This document shows positions 401 through 16,293 of a stretch of DNA of 55,359 nt, one piece after another. The position numbers were made by a program, and so were the translations under genes. The stretch comes from a virus, in IMG/VR virus record IMGVR_UViG_3300048580_000268, positions 1-55,359 of that record; one strand, written 5' to 3'. Within the stretch, counting starts at the first letter, position 1, and each line of letters begins with the position of its first letter. A model generated the notes under the pieces. That model had not been told where the DNA came from. It saw only the letters and a program-made list of their open reading frames with translations, and did no database searches.

Positions 401-3061
401 CTAACCACCTTGTAGTGATCTATCTAGTGTTGATGTTGAGACTCCAAGGCGAGCTGCTACCTCAGCTCTAGTATAGTCACCAGTACTAAGTAAGGCTTGA
501 GCTTGCTTAGTCTTGGCATCTGTCATTAATAGTTTAGCTCTTGGTGTGGCTAGCTCTCTGACTTTATCCATGTCTGAGTTGTCTAGTATTGACCTGAGTT
601 TAGTATCACTTACTGCTCCAGCTTGAATAGCTTCCCATTCTTTAGGCTCAATAACTATCTTCTCTTTCTTAGCGCCTACTCTATTGCGGGCCTCTGTTAA
701 TGCCTGGCCGTTTAACTTCTTTTCAGAAGCTCGATCCATATGTGGATTTGCTTGCTTCTTCTGCTCCATGATTTCATTAGCTAGAATCTGAGCCCGTCTT
801 TCACGAGGGGCGTTTTCTTTTGCTATGCGGAGTTTAACATCTAGAGAAGAAACTTCTTTCTCGTAAACTTTCTTTGCAGAGGGGGATGAGATAGCGCCTG
901 GGGTATTAATCATTTCAAGTCTTGCTTTGTTAGCCATAGCTTTTAGTCTGTTTGAATGATTAGCATACAGTCTTTCAACTGGTGTACCAGAAGAAAGATC
1001 ATGAGCATCTTTTGCTAATTCAAGTTCCTCAAACTTCCTTAAGCTTAACTCTCCCGTTTTACTATTTACCCTACCTGTTGGCTCCCAAACAAGCTCGCCA
1101 GTCTTTCGGTCTATTGGCCCACCGTTTCTTGCCCTACGTGGTATGACCTCAGGAACCCTTATGTCACGGCCAGCCCTAGAGATAATAGTAGAAGCTCCAC
1201 CGCTACCATCAGCTTTACGTTGATACTTTTCTTGCAGGGCCCTAATGCGGTTATCTTTCTCTGACTGCTTATAATTCAATCTGTGTTTTTCAGCGTCAAT
1301 AACAACCATTGAATGGCGAACTGCTGCAGCTAACTCAGTCTCAGAAGCCCCATGCAAAGTCATGTCTGTGATTAGGTTAGAGATAACACCCATCTGCTTT
1401 TGTGTGTCGCCCATAATTTTCATACCTGGGTATTCTCGGTATGTTTCTCTGGGGTTAAAGTTCTTTAAACCTTCTAAAGCAGGCGTTGATCTTATTCTAC
1501 CTTTATCATTTGGTATAACTAATACCGTGTCTCCATCAAAGTCCGCTCCAGACAAACGTTCCGCAACTTGTGCGTTTATTGCCACTGCATCTTTAGCGCC
1601 TTTAAGAAGTTTATTAGCTTCCCTGTTCTTGTTGTTAACAACGAGAAGTGGGATTTCGAAAGTTCCTCCATGCGGGTAGCGTATTAGAGATACTTTTGTG
1701 CCGTTATCATAATTAGGGGCGTAGACTTCTGTCGGTGATAATGAATTAATAGGTAGTATCGCATACCATGCTTGACCAGGAAGACTTGCTGCCTTTAGGT
1801 GAACGGACGCGGCATCAGTTCCATCTGCAAACTCTTGAAGAAGTTTAGATTTAACTGTTGGATTAGTTAACGCCATGATTTCATCAAGTTCAGCTTGCCG
1901 CTGTTTATAGGTGGTGTCTAAACGCTCTCTAATAAGTTTTGGTTCTTGTTTAGAAAGAACTTGCGAGGCTATGGATTTTGACCATGCTCCCCAATTACCC
2001 TCTTCATTGACAATGTTTACTGCTGACTTGTTAACTTCTAACCCAGTTTTTGGATCTTTCTCTGTTATTTGTCTACGAATTACAGCGCCAAAAGGATTAT
2101 CTGGATCATCGGTTAACTTCTTTAAAGCATCAAGTTTGTTGTTAGTTCTTTCTTTATTAGTATTAAATTGTATATCGACTCCTGCAGGCAGATCATCTTT
2201 ATACATAGCCATACCTTTTAGGTAGTGCTCTGGACCTACTTTAATACGGACTTGAGCGTAACGAGATCCTCCAAGATCTAAATCTTTAACTCCTGGACGG
2301 ATATACATTACTCCATCTAAAGCCGACCCTCCATCAGGCCCATAGACGACGTCAATTCTTTTTGGATTGATTGATATCGGTGGAAGAATCCCTAATGTAG
2401 ACTTTCCAGTATCGTCTAAACGCTCGTTAAGCATCCGTATTTTATTTCGGTTTTTAACGGCGTCGCCCCAACTTGTACCAGGTTTCGCAAGCACTCTAAG
2501 TTTTGTGTCATAAACTGTTCCAAGCTGAGGAACCGGAACGTTTGAGTGAACTTCGTAACCTTCTGCTTTCAACATAGACAAAGCGACTTTTAAACGCTCT
2601 TCACTCACATTCAAGTACATTTCTGTACCTATACCGACATCCAACCAATCAACTTTATTAACCTGATCTCTTAAAATATTAGTTACTGTTTCAATAACAT
2701 CATTTTTCATTTTAGCGGCTGGAGCAAGAAGAGTTCTAAATGTTGATTCTGGAATCCCCATTTGCTCGGATGCTGCTTTATCTGACATCTGCTTGGTGTA
2801 TTTAAGATATTCAGCAGTTTTTATTCGTTCTTGTTGTCTCTCATTTTTAGCAATAGTCTTAAACGCCCGAAGATCTGCTACAGACATTTCAAAACTTTTT
2901 GCAATTTCAGCTTCTGTAAATTTATCTTCTTTTCTCAGCTTTTCAACCATATCAAGAAAGGTTCGACTATTCTTGACATTTCCACCAGATCCCCAAGGGT
3001 ATCGACCAGATTTTCTGGGAGTACCATAATGTTCAAGATAAACGTCTTCATCAATGTACAT
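401..3061 (-). CDS. YonO-like single-chain RNA polymerase candidate
   Basis: A protein of 886 residues with the signature of the double-psi beta-barrel catalytic core of multisubunit-type RNA polymerases: ADFDGD at residues 506-511, inside AERLSGADFDGDTVLVIP, matching the metal-binding NADFDGD motif of beta-prime. The preceding segment (YPHGGTFEIP, 462-471, then a conserved VVNN) and the helical region after it fit a compact YonO/QDE-1-like enzyme. The N-terminus has HYGTPRKSGRYPWGSG (11-26), then helix-turn-helix-like segments (about 46-70 and 86-112). Another lies at the extreme C-terminus (AEVAARLGVSTSTLDRSL). The start has AAAGGGGG 6 nt upstream. Inference: it transcribes some phage genes, or enters with the virion. 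The DFDGD motif is seen; polymerase activity is inferred. These proteins are often annotated only as hypothetical or structural. Confidence 0.72.
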   Translation of the reverse strand: MYIDEDVYLEHYGTPRKSGRYPWGSGGNVKNSRTFLDMVEKLRKEDKFTEAEIAKSFEMSVADLRAFKTIAKNERQQERIKTAEYLKYTKQMSDKAASEQMGIPESTFRTLLAPAAKMKNDVIETVTNILRDQVNKVDWLDVGIGTEMYLNVSEERLKVALSMLKAEGYEVHSNVPVPQLGTVYDTKLRVLAKPGTSWGDAVKNRNKIRMLNERLDDTGKSTLGILPPISINPKRIDVVYGPDGGSALDGVMYIRPGVKDLDLGGSRYAQVRIKVGPEHYLKGMAMYKDDLPAGVDIQFNTNKERTNNKLDALKKLTDDPDNPFGAVIRRQITEKDPKTGLEVNKSAVNIVNEEGNWGAWSKSIASQVLSKQEPKLIRERLDTTYKQRQAELDEIMALTNPTVKSKLLQEFADGTDAASVHLKAASLPGQAWYAILPINSLSPTEVYAPNYDNGTKVSLIRYPHGGTFEIPLLVVNNKNREANKLLKGAKDAVAINAQVAERLSGADFDGDTVLVIPNDKGRIRSTPALEGLKNFNPRETYREYPGMKIMGDTQKQMGVISNLITDMTLHGASETELAAAVRHSMVVIDAEKHRLNYKQSEKDNRIRALQEKYQRKADGSGGASTIISRAGRDIRVPEVIPRRARNGGPIDRKTGELVWEPTGRVNSKTGELSLRKFEELELAKDAHDLSSGTPVERLYANHSNRLKAMANKARLEMINTPGAISSPSAKKVYEKEVSSLDVKLRIAKENAPRERRAQILANEIMEQKKQANPHMDRASEKKLNGQALTEARNRVGAKKEKIVIEPKEWEAIQAGAVSDTKLRSILDNSDMDKVRELATPRAKLLMTDAKTKQAQALLSTGDYTRAEVAARLGVSTSTLDRSLQGG

Positions 3062-10732: not shown

Positions 10733-10739
10733 AGCACAG

Positions 10740-10813
10740 TGCACCCCCTGGGACTTGAACCCAGAACCAACGGATTAAAAGTCCGACGCTCTAACCAATT
10801 GAGCTAGAGGTGC
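10740..10813 (-). tRNA. tRNA-Lys (anticodon TTT)
   Basis: A 74-nt cloverleaf: acceptor GCACCTC/GGGGTGC with one wobble pair, D-arm AGCTCAATTGGTTAGAGC, anticodon loop CTTTTAA, T-arm CTGGGTTCAAGTCCCAG, discriminator A, no genomic CCA. It reads AAA. Its 5' end abuts the long structured RNA region, so RNase P cleavage here could also set the 3' end of that RNA. Confidence 0.95.
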
Positions 10814-11667
10814 GTGTACCCAGCCGGATCGCCAAAAACGGCCTTACTGTTTTGACCCCCAGGATCTTATCAGTGCACTGTCTCTCACGTAAACCCTTAA
10901 TTTTCTAAGGGCGGCTCGATGACAGTCTCCTCCGGGTCAGAGGAGATGAGAAAAGGAGCAGTTTTGACCAGGATGCTCGGCCTGGGAGAGACGCCCTACA
11001 GAGGCGAAATTAAGGCAACCACGGACATATAGTGTCATCATCGCAACGAGAAACCAAGATTGCGAGGTACATGCACAGCGCTAAAGGAGAGGAAGGGACT
11101 GTGCTACGTGGTCTTTACCGACACAAGGCCTTAGCGAAATTGCTGTAGAGGCTCCTGACTAAGCCAGGAATTAAGCGTTATTGGCGCGCCTAATCTCAAA
11201 TGAGCACCTCTACAGCGTCCTTAGCCTGTTTGTGTTGTACCCAACCTATCTACCCATTTGGGCGACTCGGTCCACAAACAAAACGCGCACCTGGTACGGG
11301 TGGCGTCACACTAAGCGGTTTTTTGTTTACCTGAACCACTGATGATCAGTCAATGGCGTTCTGTGTCACCTTCACAGTGTACGGGCCTCTCGGCCCCGCG
11401 CTGAGCCTAAACTCTATTTAACGTCGCTCAGCCGACGATCTATTAATATAAACGAACTATCGCCTCAGGGCGGTCCGACCAGGATATGGGCGAGCCTGCG
11501 GACTGTACAACTCTCTGGCGAGGTGAGGTTGTAGCGCCCTGGACGAATTGATAAAAATAAAAAATGAGAAGCTGGGGCTAACTAGCCAACGAAACTAGTT
11601 ATTAGCGATCTTTCTTCATCGCGCCAGGTAGGTGGGGTTTGCTCCCACTCATTACGTGTCTTACCTT
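10814..11667 (-). ncRNA. Large structured non-coding RNA candidate, about 850 nt
   Basis: An ORF-free stretch of about 850 nt between the cassette-type promoter at 11674-11702 and tRNA-Lys. Perfect helices paired by eye: 11142-11151/11207-11216 (10 bp); 11227-11234/11273-11280 (8 bp) enclosing CCC-ATTT-GGG; 10926-10932/10940-10946 and 10880-10886/10986-10992 (7 bp each); 10894-10899/10906-10911; 11041-11046/11060-11065; 11073-11078/11099-11104; 11506-11511/11528-11533; 11580-11585/11595-11600; 11383-11387/11392-11396, whose minus-strand loop GAGA is a GNRA tetraloop. Size, tRNA neighbour and phage setting recall the GOLLD and ROOL RNAs; membership in either family is inference. Confidence 0.72.
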
Positions 11668-11673
11668 CTTCTC

Positions 11674-11702
11674 ATTATAAGCCCTGTAATTTTTGCGGAT
11701 CA
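11674..11702 (-). promoter_or_regulatory. Promoter of the large RNA and tRNA region
   Basis: TATAATGAGA preceded by TTACAGGGCT, the conserved core of the cassette promoters. The -35 position is TGATCC and overlaps the end of the upstream gene. Nothing coding follows for about 1 kb, so its first product is RNA. Confidence 0.8.
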
Positions 11703-12077: not shown

Positions 12078-12548
12078 CTACAATATATCAGAAGGGTGCG
12101 CAGCGTACTTACGCTCTAACTCATCCTCACGAATGGTGATGTAGAGCGACTGAAGATACGCTTTGATGCCGGTCTTTCCGTTTACGGCCCACTCATACCC
12201 GCGAGCAATGAGATCTGCAGTTTGTACATCTGCCCAATCAAGAACAGCAACGCTGTCCTCAGTAAGCTGGGTTCGAGCCGTAGAGGTGATCATGATGACC
12301 TTTGGCGGGCGAATGTTAAAGTTCACAGTCACCTGAATATATGGCGTAGGTGTATCACCTTCGTCCCTCGGCTCAAGGTAACGAACATTCCATCCGTCGT
12401 TCAACAGATTTACTGCGGACTCGTCGTCCAAAATGACCGAAAAGTTTCGGTCTCCTTCACGATTGTACTGACCCTCCTTACCAGAAAAGTTCCGGAAAAT
12501 AAGAGTCGCGTCCTCCACGATAAATGTCTTTGCTTCTTTACTTGTCAT
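12078..12548 (-). CDS. Single-stranded DNA-binding-like protein
   Basis: A 156-residue protein of a phage family usually placed as ssDNA-binding-like. It opens FIVEDATLIFRNFSGKEGQYN and NFSVIL, has an OB-fold-like run of strands in the middle (YIQVTVNFNIRPPKVIMIT), and ends NGKTGIKAYLQSLYITIRED with a charged tail. It lies 10 bp after the primase-helicase-polymerase gene, the expected place for a replication partner. AAGGAG lies 6 nt before the ATG. The ssDNA-binding role is family knowledge plus context; no motif proves it. Confidence 0.62.
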   Translation of the reverse strand: MTSKEAKTFIVEDATLIFRNFSGKEGQYNREGDRNFSVILDDESAVNLLNDGWNVRYLEPRDEGDTPTPYIQVTVNFNIRPPKVIMITSTARTQLTEDSVAVLDWADVQTADLIARGYEWAVNGKTGIKAYLQSLYITIREDELERKYAAHPSDIL

Positions 12549-12558
12549 AAATATCTCC

Positions 12559-15500
12559 TTAAGATATAAAGTCTTCGAAGTTACCGAATTTATTGATGCT
12601 CTCTTTGGCTTTGTCTACGAGCGTTATGAAATATGAATCATCAAGCTGGTAGTTTTGGTTGTCTTTTGCCACAGAAGCCTCAACCCATGAGTAATCTTTT
12701 GTTCCTGTTACGGCATAATGTTTATTGTCCTTTATTCTATAAAGCCGTCCTCCTCCTTCGACAACTGGCACAAATCGACCAGTTCGGCCAACGTGCCTCA
12801 TTTGCTCTATGATCTCACTACCTTCAAAGTCCAAATACATTACTCCTTGAGTAACGGTTTTGGCTTCACAAATATCATCAAAAGTGATCTCTTCGCCGCT
12901 GAACAACGTCTTGTAAACGTAAGGATGTTGGAACTGCGCGCCTACCGCTTCCCACTTATCACCGCTCTTAGCAATATAAACAGCGTCATTTACTAAACAG
13001 AACTTTTCGTAAGTTCCTTCATGCTCAAAATCGTATCCGTAGTCAGAGCCAAAGTCCTTGACAAACTGAATGATTTCGGGCGTTGCATTAGGGATCTTTA
13101 TTGAATCTGTTTTGATATGGGCGACGACAAAACCTTCATCTTGAACAGCGTGCTTGAGATCAATCATGAACAAAGCACCGCGTTTGGCTACGATGTTGTC
13201 TTTGTTACGGTAGTCCTTGAACGGGTTGTCGAATCTTGCGCTTGTGAGACCATAGACGATGTTAATGACAATCTTAAGAGCGTAGGACAGAGCGTCAAGC
13301 TCATCTTCAGAGCCTGAAACAAACTGTTCGAGTTTACCGTCCAGCAGAGTTTTGGCTCGATTGTAGTCCTTATGCTTAATCGCCATACGTGCTGTCTTGA
13401 GCTCACTGAATCGGTTTGTGTAAGGTCCGAACAAGTCAAGGCATTCGATAGACGTCGGATGCATACTCGCAACGTCAAGAAGTGCCACATCCGTATAGAT
13501 ACCTGGTTCAGCATAGACGTATCCTCCTTCACCAGTAACTTCACCCTTATAAAAACTCTCTTTACCATTAAATATATAACCAGGAAACTCTTCGCTGAGA
13601 TCACTGTAGACAAAAGAACTCTGTGGCTTTTTGTCGTCACCAAATATGATCTTAGCGGTATGATTCTGAGTTGTGTGGTTTACGGATAATCCAGAAAGCT
13701 CAGCAAGGATTTTTCTGGCGACGAAGTCTTGTCTGCGAGAATTGAAAACTGCTTCAGTAGCAACGACGTCGTTAACGCAATACTCTTCAACTTTTTTCCA
13801 CAAAGACTCATCCACGGGTTCATCCCATGGAATATCCAGTTCCATATGAAGAATCCCAAGTTCAATCTGGAACTTCTTTAGCCCTTGCTTTTTTGAACTG
13901 AAGTCGTAAATATCCGCGTATGACAGATTGTATGCCTCGCCAAATAAGACGTTACGCTCGTTTCCTCCATTGATGATCCTGCTACTTAAATTGTAGAGCT
14001 CTTCGTTAGAGTACCCTAAATAACGCGCGTAAAGAATATGATTGTCATAACGTCTATTGTTGAACCCCACCAATTTGTTACCAAGAAGCTCTTCGACCTC
14101 TTGCGGAGTTGGGTTAATCATTCTTGAAACGCCATCTGAGTTTTCAGACTTCCAACAGACAATAAACAGATTAGGATATACCTCTACGTCAAAGAACACT
14201 ATAGGTTTATCTTGCTCGTCGATGACCTCTGGCATCTCAGACTTACCAACAAAATCCATTTTTTGGACTAAACTGACACAATATGAAGACTGATGTGAGC
14301 TTCCTGCCGCAAAGGTTAGGATGTTTGACCGTAAATCCCGAACGTCATACGAAAGTCCTTCGTCATACGCATCTTTAAGAATCTTATGAATGAAATCTAT
14401 AGAAGGCTTTGTCCCAGGATGGATTTCCTTTTTGAGATTTCGAATAATTAATTCTCTGAGAGAACGTTCGCTTTTAATACTCTGAACGTCTAGCAACTTC
14501 TTTTCCTTTGTTGGAAGCCCATCATATAAAGGCGTAACGTTTATCTTATTACACTTAGTTAATTTTCGTCGAAGTGAAGAATTCCCAAGGAGTGTTTTAA
14601 TTTCGACTCCAACAGAATGTAGATTTGCTAGGCTTTCGACATCCCCATAATAGTTGTAATGAAGATGTAAACCATGCCCACTCTTACTAAGTTCAGCGTA
14701 GGTGACGGGCCAAGCGTTTGCTTTTTCAAGACATGCCTCTATGTTTTTTACACCGTCTTCGTCAGTAAGATCAAAATCGATCACAATATGCTCACGAGGA
14801 ACCTGAACGTAATGAAGTTTTGATGTGTCAATATCCTTCAGCGTTGTCGTGACATTTTCCCAGCGCTTCTCTGGTGTCCCGTCGTCCTTAGCATACTGAG
14901 CAGGCTGATTAGCGAATAGCTCGTCGAAGACAGAAAGCCCTTCTTCAAGCTCGATAGAATATGGACCATCGGTTTTGATAGGCATATCAGCCTTTGGAGG
15001 AGACTGGGCAAGATGTTTGAAACCTTTGTAATAACTGCGCACATCGGCTCCATCAATCTTGATTCTGTCGTGGAAGTCTTCGAAGTAGTCCTTGAGATGC
15101 TCTCGTAACTTGTATTGAGGAAGCATCTTGTCGATACCCGTCTCGCTACAGAACTCTTTGTAGAGAGTCCAAGCCCGACGCAATGTAACCCCGTCTTCAG
15201 CCTTGAAAATATCAAAGTTGGCTTCCACGAAATTATAGAAGACGTCGGTTTGGAGCATCATTTCAGTTGGGCGATATGAGCTATAATGATTTTTCCCAAG
15301 CGCAAGGTACTTCTGTAAACAAGAATATGCGATTGAACCAAGCTCAAAATCAATCTTTTCCATAAGAAAATGGTACGTATCGTGGTCAATTGTCCGTTGA
15401 GTAGGAACAACATCAATAAGACGACGAATAATACCAGACTTGGCGTCCGTGATCTTGACCGGGAGGTTTGTCCCCATAAATAAGAACGCGTTTGACTTCG

Positions 15501-16293
15501 TCTCAAAAGGCATACGGTACTTCTCATTTACCGTCATAGTCTCGTGAGCAACAATCGAGTTCAGCTTTGTGTTGTCGTAGATTCTGGAGAGGTCCCCGTC
15601 GTGCTGAATAGCGACGAGAGGGTTTGACTTGAACGCAGCGGTAGCAAAGGCGTTATTGTTACCAGCCAGCTCTCTTGCGTCGAAGACCGCCGTATATCCA
15701 TGGAATAATTTCTGGATGATATTAAGGATAGTAGACTTACCGCTTCCAGGCGGTCCGTAGAAGACAAGGAACTTCTGAATATGTTTTGAATCTCCAGAAG
15801 CAATTGCGCCGATAGCCCATTCAATCTTCTCACGCTCCTCTTCAGAATATAGAGTTCCGACAATAGTATCCCAAGCAGAGCATTCTCCTGGGTGTAATGA
15901 ATATGGAAGGCGTTTACTTACATAATCGGTTCGCTTAACTTCAGTGTTTGCGAAGGTTAAAACCTCGTCAAGATTGTGGCTGTTGTTACCACTATTCCGG
16001 ACAAACCGCTGAAACTCGTCCCACAACTTTGTTGAGTTGGATTCAAGAGAAGCTACGGTATGAATAATACCGCTTCTTTCCTGCATCTCTTTTTGGTTTT
16101 TGAAAAGGTCAGCATCAACAAGACGCTGAACATCGTAAATATCAGTAGACCAAAGACCTTTGTCCTCGTCCCAAATGGCGTAGAACGCACCACCGCGAGT
16201 CATTAGGTCTTTGGATCTACCAACCTTGAAATCAGGGCGGATCTGCAGTGTACCATCTTTTTTCTCCTTAACAATAATATTATAGAAGTCCAC
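12559..16293 (-). CDS. SF3 helicase - primase - family B DNA polymerase fusion
   Basis: One 1,244-residue chain. Helicase: Walker A GPPGSGKS (180-187), Walker B-like VAIQHDGDLS (227-236), sensor FLFMGTNLPVK (270-280) and IIRRLIDVVP (288-297), as in P4/D5 SF3 helicases. Primase-like: VIDFDLTDEDG (504-514, DxD) and SKSGHGLHLHY (536-546), as in archaeo-eukaryotic primases. Polymerase: Exo I FFDVEVYP (700-707), Exo II VGFNNRRYDN (742-751), Exo III YCVNDVVATEAV (838-849), motif A LLDVASMHPTS (938-948), motif B KIVINIVYG (1007-1015) and motif C KTDS (1061-1064) where most family members have DTDS. The start is GTG after AAAGGGGG. It should unwind, prime, copy and proofread phage DNA. The motifs are direct observations; activity of each domain is inferred. 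Confidence 0.9.
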   Translation of the reverse strand: MDFYNIIVKEKKDGTLQIRPDFKVGRSKDLMTRGGAFYAIWDEDKGLWSTDIYDVQRLVDADLFKNQKEMQERSGIIHTVASLESNSTKLWDEFQRFVRNSGNNSHNLDEVLTFANTEVKRTDYVSKRLPYSLHPGECSAWDTIVGTLYSEEEREKIEWAIGAIASGDSKHIQKFLVFYGPPGSGKSTILNIIQKLFHGYTAVFDARELAGNNNAFATAAFKSNPLVAIQHDGDLSRIYDNTKLNSIVAHETMTVNEKYRMPFETKSNAFLFMGTNLPVKITDAKSGIIRRLIDVVPTQRTIDHDTYHFLMEKIDFELGSIAYSCLQKYLALGKNHYSSYRPTEMMLQTDVFYNFVEANFDIFKAEDGVTLRRAWTLYKEFCSETGIDKMLPQYKLREHLKDYFEDFHDRIKIDGADVRSYYKGFKHLAQSPPKADMPIKTDGPYSIELEEGLSVFDELFANQPAQYAKDDGTPEKRWENVTTTLKDIDTSKLHYVQVPREHIVIDFDLTDEDGVKNIEACLEKANAWPVTYAELSKSGHGLHLHYNYYGDVESLANLHSVGVEIKTLLGNSSLRRKLTKCNKINVTPLYDGLPTKEKKLLDVQSIKSERSLRELIIRNLKKEIHPGTKPSIDFIHKILKDAYDEGLSYDVRDLRSNILTFAAGSSHQSSYCVSLVQKMDFVGKSEMPEVIDEQDKPIVFFDVEVYPNLFIVCWKSENSDGVSRMINPTPQEVEELLGNKLVGFNNRRYDNHILYARYLGYSNEELYNLSSRIINGGNERNVLFGEAYNLSYADIYDFSSKKQGLKKFQIELGILHMELDIPWDEPVDESLWKKVEEYCVNDVVATEAVFNSRRQDFVARKILAELSGLSVNHTTQNHTAKIIFGDDKKPQSSFVYSDLSEEFPGYIFNGKESFYKGEVTGEGGYVYAEPGIYTDVALLDVASMHPTSIECLDLFGPYTNRFSELKTARMAIKHKDYNRAKTLLDGKLEQFVSGSEDELDALSYALKIVINIVYGLTSARFDNPFKDYRNKDNIVAKRGALFMIDLKHAVQDEGFVVAHIKTDSIKIPNATPEIIQFVKDFGSDYGYDFEHEGTYEKFCLVNDAVYIAKSGDKWEAVGAQFQHPYVYKTLFSGEEITFDDICEAKTVTQGVMYLDFEGSEIIEQMRHVGRTGRFVPVVEGGGRLYRIKDNKHYAVTGTKDYSWVEASVAKDNQNYQLDDSYFITLVDKAKESINKFGNFEDFIS

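Follow-up and report, generated by a model that had tools for sequence, protein, structure and literature searches.

A modular phage RNA with a Pistol self-cleaving ribozyme joined to a conserved structured core

A structured RNA feature on the minus strand of a phage genome contains a Pistol self-cleaving ribozyme that is joined, on its 3′ side, to a conserved core matching no known (Rfam) family, and comparison with other phages shows the same RNA, its parts variously exchanged, in about thirty related bacterial viruses. We consider it probable, at roughly 0.68, that these sequences constitute a new class of modular phage RNA in which the 5′ end is generated by Pistol self-cleavage and the core is probably a stand-alone RNA.

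Results

The window and its non-coding region

The window, by which we mean the whole stretch of DNA analysed, is an IMG/VR virus record of 55,359 bases. Upstream of the RNA region it carries a gene for a single-strand-annealing protein (SSAP; 12078–12548) and one for a primase-polymerase (12559–16293, minus strand), the latter with about 60% identity to Gordonia phage counterparts. In agreement with a preliminary description that had taken the region to be non-coding, we found no ORF of at least 40 aa on the minus strand between 10640 and 11700 and just two, overlapping each other, on the plus strand (53 aa starting with TTG, and 44 aa with ATG). The minus strand folds better than its shuffled versions (z = −3.07; 0/20 shuffles as good), which bears out the earlier view that the region is structured, whereas the plus strand does barely better than shuffles (z = −1.21), and the RNA feature was therefore placed on the minus strand. 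It reads from a promoter-like sequence (11690–11671) to tRNA-Lys (10813–10739), with the following elements:

11671–11690, minus strand: promoter-like phage sequence ATTACAGGGCTTATAATGAG, with about ten near-identical copies in the window's early region
11553–11673, minus strand: separate small-RNA unit, in which 5′ GAGAAG pairs with 3′ CUUCUC, followed by terminator-like AUUUUUUAUUUUU
11468–11539, minus strand: domain X, a three-way junction (GGGCG/CGCCC; UACAA/UUGUA; GUCCG/CGGAC)
11377–11437, minus strand: Pistol self-cleaving ribozyme (RF02679; 46.6 bits compared to a gathering cut-off of 34.5)
11361–11377, minus strand: core hairpin H1 (CUGUG-AAGGUGA-CACAG; consensus CUGUG-AAGGnnn-CACAG), from covariance model R1 and pair counts, its first C being shared with Pistol P2
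11335–11357, minus strand: core hairpin H2, with loop CUGAUCA (holding the palindrome UGAUCA) and double changes at 7/7 modelled pairs
11316–11328, minus strand: near-invariant, A-rich single strand AAACAAAAAACCG, conserved in core alignments
11310–11315, minus strand: P4 5′ strand CUUAGU, partner of 11225–11220
11217–11225, minus strand: P4 3′ strand GCUAAG, then GAC, from P4 pair counts
11142–11216, minus strand: long terminal hairpin GCUGUAGAGG...CCUCUACAGC, fold −36.7 kcal/mol
11012–11132, minus strand: domain Z, a probable pseudoknot (GUGUC/GACAC crossing ACCACG/CGUGGU) with C/U-rich loop UCCCUUCCUCUCCUU, from three sequences examined by eye
10956–10996, minus strand: possible H-type pseudoknot module (CCAGG/CCUGG crossing GAGCA/UGCUC), common to locus L004 only
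10814–10955, minus strand: further structured stretch up to tRNA-Lys, with a stable fold and no relatives
10739–10813, minus strand: tRNA-Lys(UUU), abutting the end of the region, an adjacency that is not conserved

The preliminary description had placed a phage promoter at the start of the region and a tRNA at its end. The tRNA is where it was said to be, and the promoter-like sequence is present too but just beyond the limit then assigned to the region. The same description had envisaged a single RNA of about 850 nt; a large structured RNA indeed exists, but the first ~120 nt (11673–11553; fold −33.7 kcal/mol) are a unit of their own with a terminator-like end, kin to the promoter-RNA-terminator units of Gordonia phages (about 98 nt are similar to phages Hydrus, Zeph and Secretariat), so that the large RNA proper begins at about 11540. 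Promoter-small RNA-terminator units were also seen in loci L088 (3001–3250), L092 (3001–3140) and L094, with a closing helix such as GAGAGG/CCUCUC, and one of those in Hydrus holds a T-arm-like sequence.

The near-identical promoter-like copies (TTTACA or ATTACA, about 5 nt, and TATAATGAGA) lie between 6367 and 11690 on the minus strand, mostly directly 5′ of small genes and some preceded by hairpin and T-run terminators. Elements like those of the window also occur 5′ of the RNA in L004, L026 and L144. An 886-aa protein encoded at 401–3061 (minus strand) matches PHROG 4291 ('RNA-dependent RNA polymerase'); we take it to be a YonO-like single-chain RNA polymerase, which might be the reader of the repeated promoters.

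The Pistol ribozyme

Pistol is the sole non-tRNA Rfam match at gathering over the whole window. It had escaped the preliminary description, which nonetheless singled out a helix with a GNRA loop, GGGCC-GAGA-GGCCC, that is real and corresponds to the P3 hairpin of the ribozyme. As in RF02679, we could identify P1 (CGUCG/CGACG), P3 with its GAGA loop, and a 6-bp pseudoknot of the P1 loop with the P2–P3 linker (GCUGAG/CUCAGC) that covaries over 31 members. The GU junction between P3 and P2 is intact, with the cut predicted from the Rfam alignment between G11382 and U11381. P2 (GAGU/ACAC) contains a single A-A mismatch, and its final C is common to core hairpin H1. The paper on the Pistol class (PMC4604425) portrays a small motif near phage genes, and its consensus section mentions no such core. 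In contrast to Pistol as described, a stand-alone motif of ~70 nt, the ribozyme is here joined without a linker to a conserved core, and its P3, a minimal stem in the window, L004, L024, L033 and L144, encloses whole domains of roughly 75–130 nt in most other members.

The conserved core

From the cleavage site, the core runs through H1, a short linker, H2 (whose loop is usually UGAUCA among members), the A-rich single strand, P4 with a variable multibranched region inside it, GAC and the long terminal hairpin, which was recognized by eye 3′ of GAC in nearly all members. Compensatory change is strong in both H1/H2 and P4. Covariance model R1, built from ten sequences and covering H1, H2 and the A-rich strand only, yielded 28 matches in 95 loci. 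In an alignment of 27 distinct rows, fitted to R1 and with a structure hand-written from folds and the alignment, 97.1% of H1/H2 cells were paired compared to 73.9 ± 1.6 upon shuffling, with 70 double changes compared to 18.8 ± 3.6; none of 500 shuffles reached the observed pairing or double changes, and the signal collapsed when the partner was slid by one column. The same signal was obtained, with a structure likewise hand-written, from a ten-sequence MAFFT alignment that pre-dates R1. For P4, where registers were picked by hand with the GAC motif as the anchor in most cases, 26 members yielded 120 of the 130 Watson-Crick pairs possible, compared to 58.8 ± 5.9 when 3′ strands were exchanged among members, and these 26 members display 20 distinct 5-bp helices. 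Covariation among relatives, the very check put forward in the preliminary description, thus backs its proposal of a large, conserved and structured phage RNA.

Exchangeable domains

Comparison of members shows that domains change place, lying within a ribozyme stem in some and outside it in others. Most members with domain X carry it within Pistol P3, whereas the window, L004 and L029 have it 5′ of the ribozyme; L011, a locus without Pistol, contains it too, and L145 has an X-like sequence on the 3′ side of the core. The helices of domain X covary in 14 members and are almost fully Watson-Crick paired (P3out, 70/70; helix b, 69/70, with a shuffle mean of 48.8; helix c, 65/70). Domain Z is 3′ of the terminal hairpin in the window, where L004 has only a few bases at the same point; L112 and L117 carry it within Pistol P3, and compensatory changes can be seen there by eye. 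These three sequences, read by eye, suggest a pseudoknot, and the C/U-rich loop is identical in two of them. A pattern search for domain Z returned one known member (L124); a further candidate, L155, was a false match in apparent coding sequence. We also noted tRNA-like inserts with T-arm-like GGGUUCGAUUCCC hairpins in Pistol P3 of L145 and L110 and in L154 (1336–1440); none of the tRNA-like inserts in L145, L153 and L154 was called by ARAGORN.

Distribution among phages

We gathered 80 phage loci via the upstream SSAP gene, and DNA patterns for the core block located further phage contigs independently of SSAP. Core sequences total 32, all on phage contigs, and in 31 of them an intact Pistol lies 60–172 nt upstream of the core, L011 having a core without Pistol. 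Among 50 related phage records, Pistol scored above the Rfam cut-off in 24 and at E 0.01 in 27. In the 21 SSAP-found loci matched by R1, the core is 1.0–5.1 kb downstream of SSAP on the same strand, which is to be read as a constant order and not as independent linkage, since these loci were chosen through SSAP. Some related phages lack the core, which is hence no requirement across the group.

No member of the RNA emerged from two pattern scans covering 84,980 genomes of bacteria and archaea; the two pattern matches that might have been bacterial or prophage copies look like coding sequence. BLAST of the region, its core and the L116 core against 50,697 phage records recovered nothing beyond the segment with Pistol, the promoter unit at the 5′ end and matches due to chance. 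Searches confined to open-access papers turned up no description of a Pistol-core RNA, and an earlier one elsewhere (most subscription papers, bioRxiv) is possible.

Pistol or a close match was found in cultured phages as well: Gordonia phages GTE7, Austin and GMA2, Curtobacterium phages, and Microbacterium phages Count and Camille. As in the window, structured RNA containing an A-run comes after Pistol in the Count/Camille, GTE7/GMA2 and Curtobacterium loci; unlike the core, those tested have no match to R1 (none in GTE7, Pippin15, Eevee, Count or Camille). Examined by eye, Count and Camille exhibit a core-like order of H1 hairpin, H2 and A-run with an exchangeable tRNA-like domain, and a possible 6-bp pairing of the H1 loop with one compensatory change between the two. 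Their RNAs are likely, but unproven, kin of the core. In Count, the annotated gene 88 (45 aa, hypothetical; L153, 1647–1784) overlies the structured RNA linked to Pistol and may not be a genuine gene. In GMA2 (L156, 724–983), a Pistol-like ribozyme is found in a tRNA array between tRNA-Trp and tRNA-Gln, ~6 nt past the former. In L097, L090, L091 and L089, Pistol precedes a different structured region, which in several has a GAUUGAAAAGCCCC-like motif and is possibly a second class.

Gene neighbourhood and alternative explanations

In many members the stop codon of the upstream ORF falls inside Pistol, which suggests co-transcription, with the qualification that some of these ORFs may be chance. 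Freeing the RNA from the preceding message would be a plausible job for the ribozyme. Downstream ORFs, whose choice was automatic so that some may be false, are unrelated in almost every case, with 23 loci giving 22 clusters; the RNA is thus not tied to one gene. Most members run directly into an ORF with a ribosome-binding site and without a clear terminator, and L118, with a weak Pistol match, is directly 5′ of an ORF without having the core. Both arrangements would suit the main rival to a stand-alone RNA, namely a cis-acting leader in which Pistol cleavage and a compact core insulate or stabilise the 5′ end of the downstream early mRNA. Ribozyme-hairpin insulators used in synthetic biology offer a likeness for such a leader which, serving any gene, would need no conserved downstream gene. 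Against this, hardly any two loci share their downstream gene, simple stabilisation would not require single strands that scarcely vary, helices that covary or domains that can be exchanged, and about 0.3 kb of other sequence plus tRNA-Lys precede the next gene in the window. We therefore regard a leader as possible but rather unlikely, and favour a core that acts on its own.

Only L031, among 25 relatives scanned, has a tRNA within ~0.4 kb downstream, so we rejected a conserved tRNA association (1/25). The preliminary description had invoked RNase P cleavage at tRNA-Lys to define the 3′ end; with the tRNA not a conserved neighbour, such trimming cannot be the general mechanism. Theta (HDV-like) ribozymes of gut phages, which like Pistol here are self-cleaving ribozymes in phage genomes and sometimes near tRNAs, cut at tRNA 3′ ends (PMC10879173). 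That Pistol similarly processes the tRNA-Lys precursor could draw on the presence of tRNA-Lys downstream in the same transcript and on the Pistol-like sequence ~6 nt after tRNA-Trp in GMA2, but is very improbable: the predicted cut is ~570 nt upstream of tRNA-Lys, the adjacency is absent in nearly all relatives, and the unrelated core to which the window Pistol is fused, unlike theta ribozymes, would be left unexplained. A role in initiating replication, played by an RNA in extrachromosomal mycobacterial prophages (PMC7157519), seems most unlikely as well; the region does adjoin replication and recombination genes (primase-polymerase, SSAP), but the phage encodes its own primase-polymerase, and the resemblance considered is one of genomic context.

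GOLLD and ROOL, phage RNAs of unknown function that form nanocages (PMC12286853), had been suggested in the preliminary description as the kind to which the region belongs, with HEARO named as a further model to search. None of the three was detected in the region at E ≤ 10 (cmscan, permissive filters), over the window at gathering, or, with cut-offs of E ≤ 0.5 or E ≤ 0.05, among 20 relatives and comparison loci. The window RNA resembles GOLLD and ROOL in being large (of similar size), phage-borne, structured and non-coding, with a conserved and a variable part, modular peripheral domains and an adjoining tRNA; it differs in lacking any sequence or covariance-model match, in its self-cleaving ribozyme, of a sort that the literature examined does not describe in these families, and in that the tRNA proximity typical of GOLLD, true in the window, does not extend to most relatives. 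Membership is refuted at the Rfam level, and even a distant relationship to GOLLD, ROOL or HEARO is scarcely tenable. The other option raised at the time, a new class, is the part of that interpretation that holds.

Discussion

For the new class of modular RNA that we favour, we envisage leftward transcription that starts at the phage promoter or reads through from the upstream gene, giving a precursor that Pistol would cut at G11382/U11381 to split the core from the upstream RNA and leave it with a 5′-OH. Bounded by this 5′-OH and the long 3′ hairpin, the core (H1, H2, A-rich strand, P4, GAC and terminal hairpin) would accumulate and function independently as an RNA in the course of infection, with X, Z and other exchangeable domains attached to it at a few places. 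Cleavage in vivo, release and stand-alone action are what we infer from the comparative data.

More speculatively, and in our judgement doubtful, the core freed by Pistol might assemble as a homo-oligomer via kissing H2 loops. Of the 32 members, 17 have a self-complementary H2 loop (UGAUCA; also UAGCUA and AUCGAU), compared to a mean of 2.6 and a maximum of 9 in 2000 shuffles, a count that overstates the support for kissing loops since most of the 17 share one motif, maybe by descent. In members with a UGAUCA loop, the motif is nowhere else in the stretch examined. Palindromic loops are only a hint of an oligomer but, if it does form, it would be a modular complex of RNA alone that processes itself and is independent of GOLLD, ROOL and OLE.

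We know of no explanation for the natural role of Pistol ribozymes. A Pistol locked to a conserved core in about thirty viruses would provide a testable one, the making of the 5′ end of a phage RNA, for which Count, Camille and GTE7 may serve as laboratory systems should their RNAs turn out to be related. The RNA described here would, moreover, add to the large structured RNAs of phages a class unrelated to GOLLD and ROOL.
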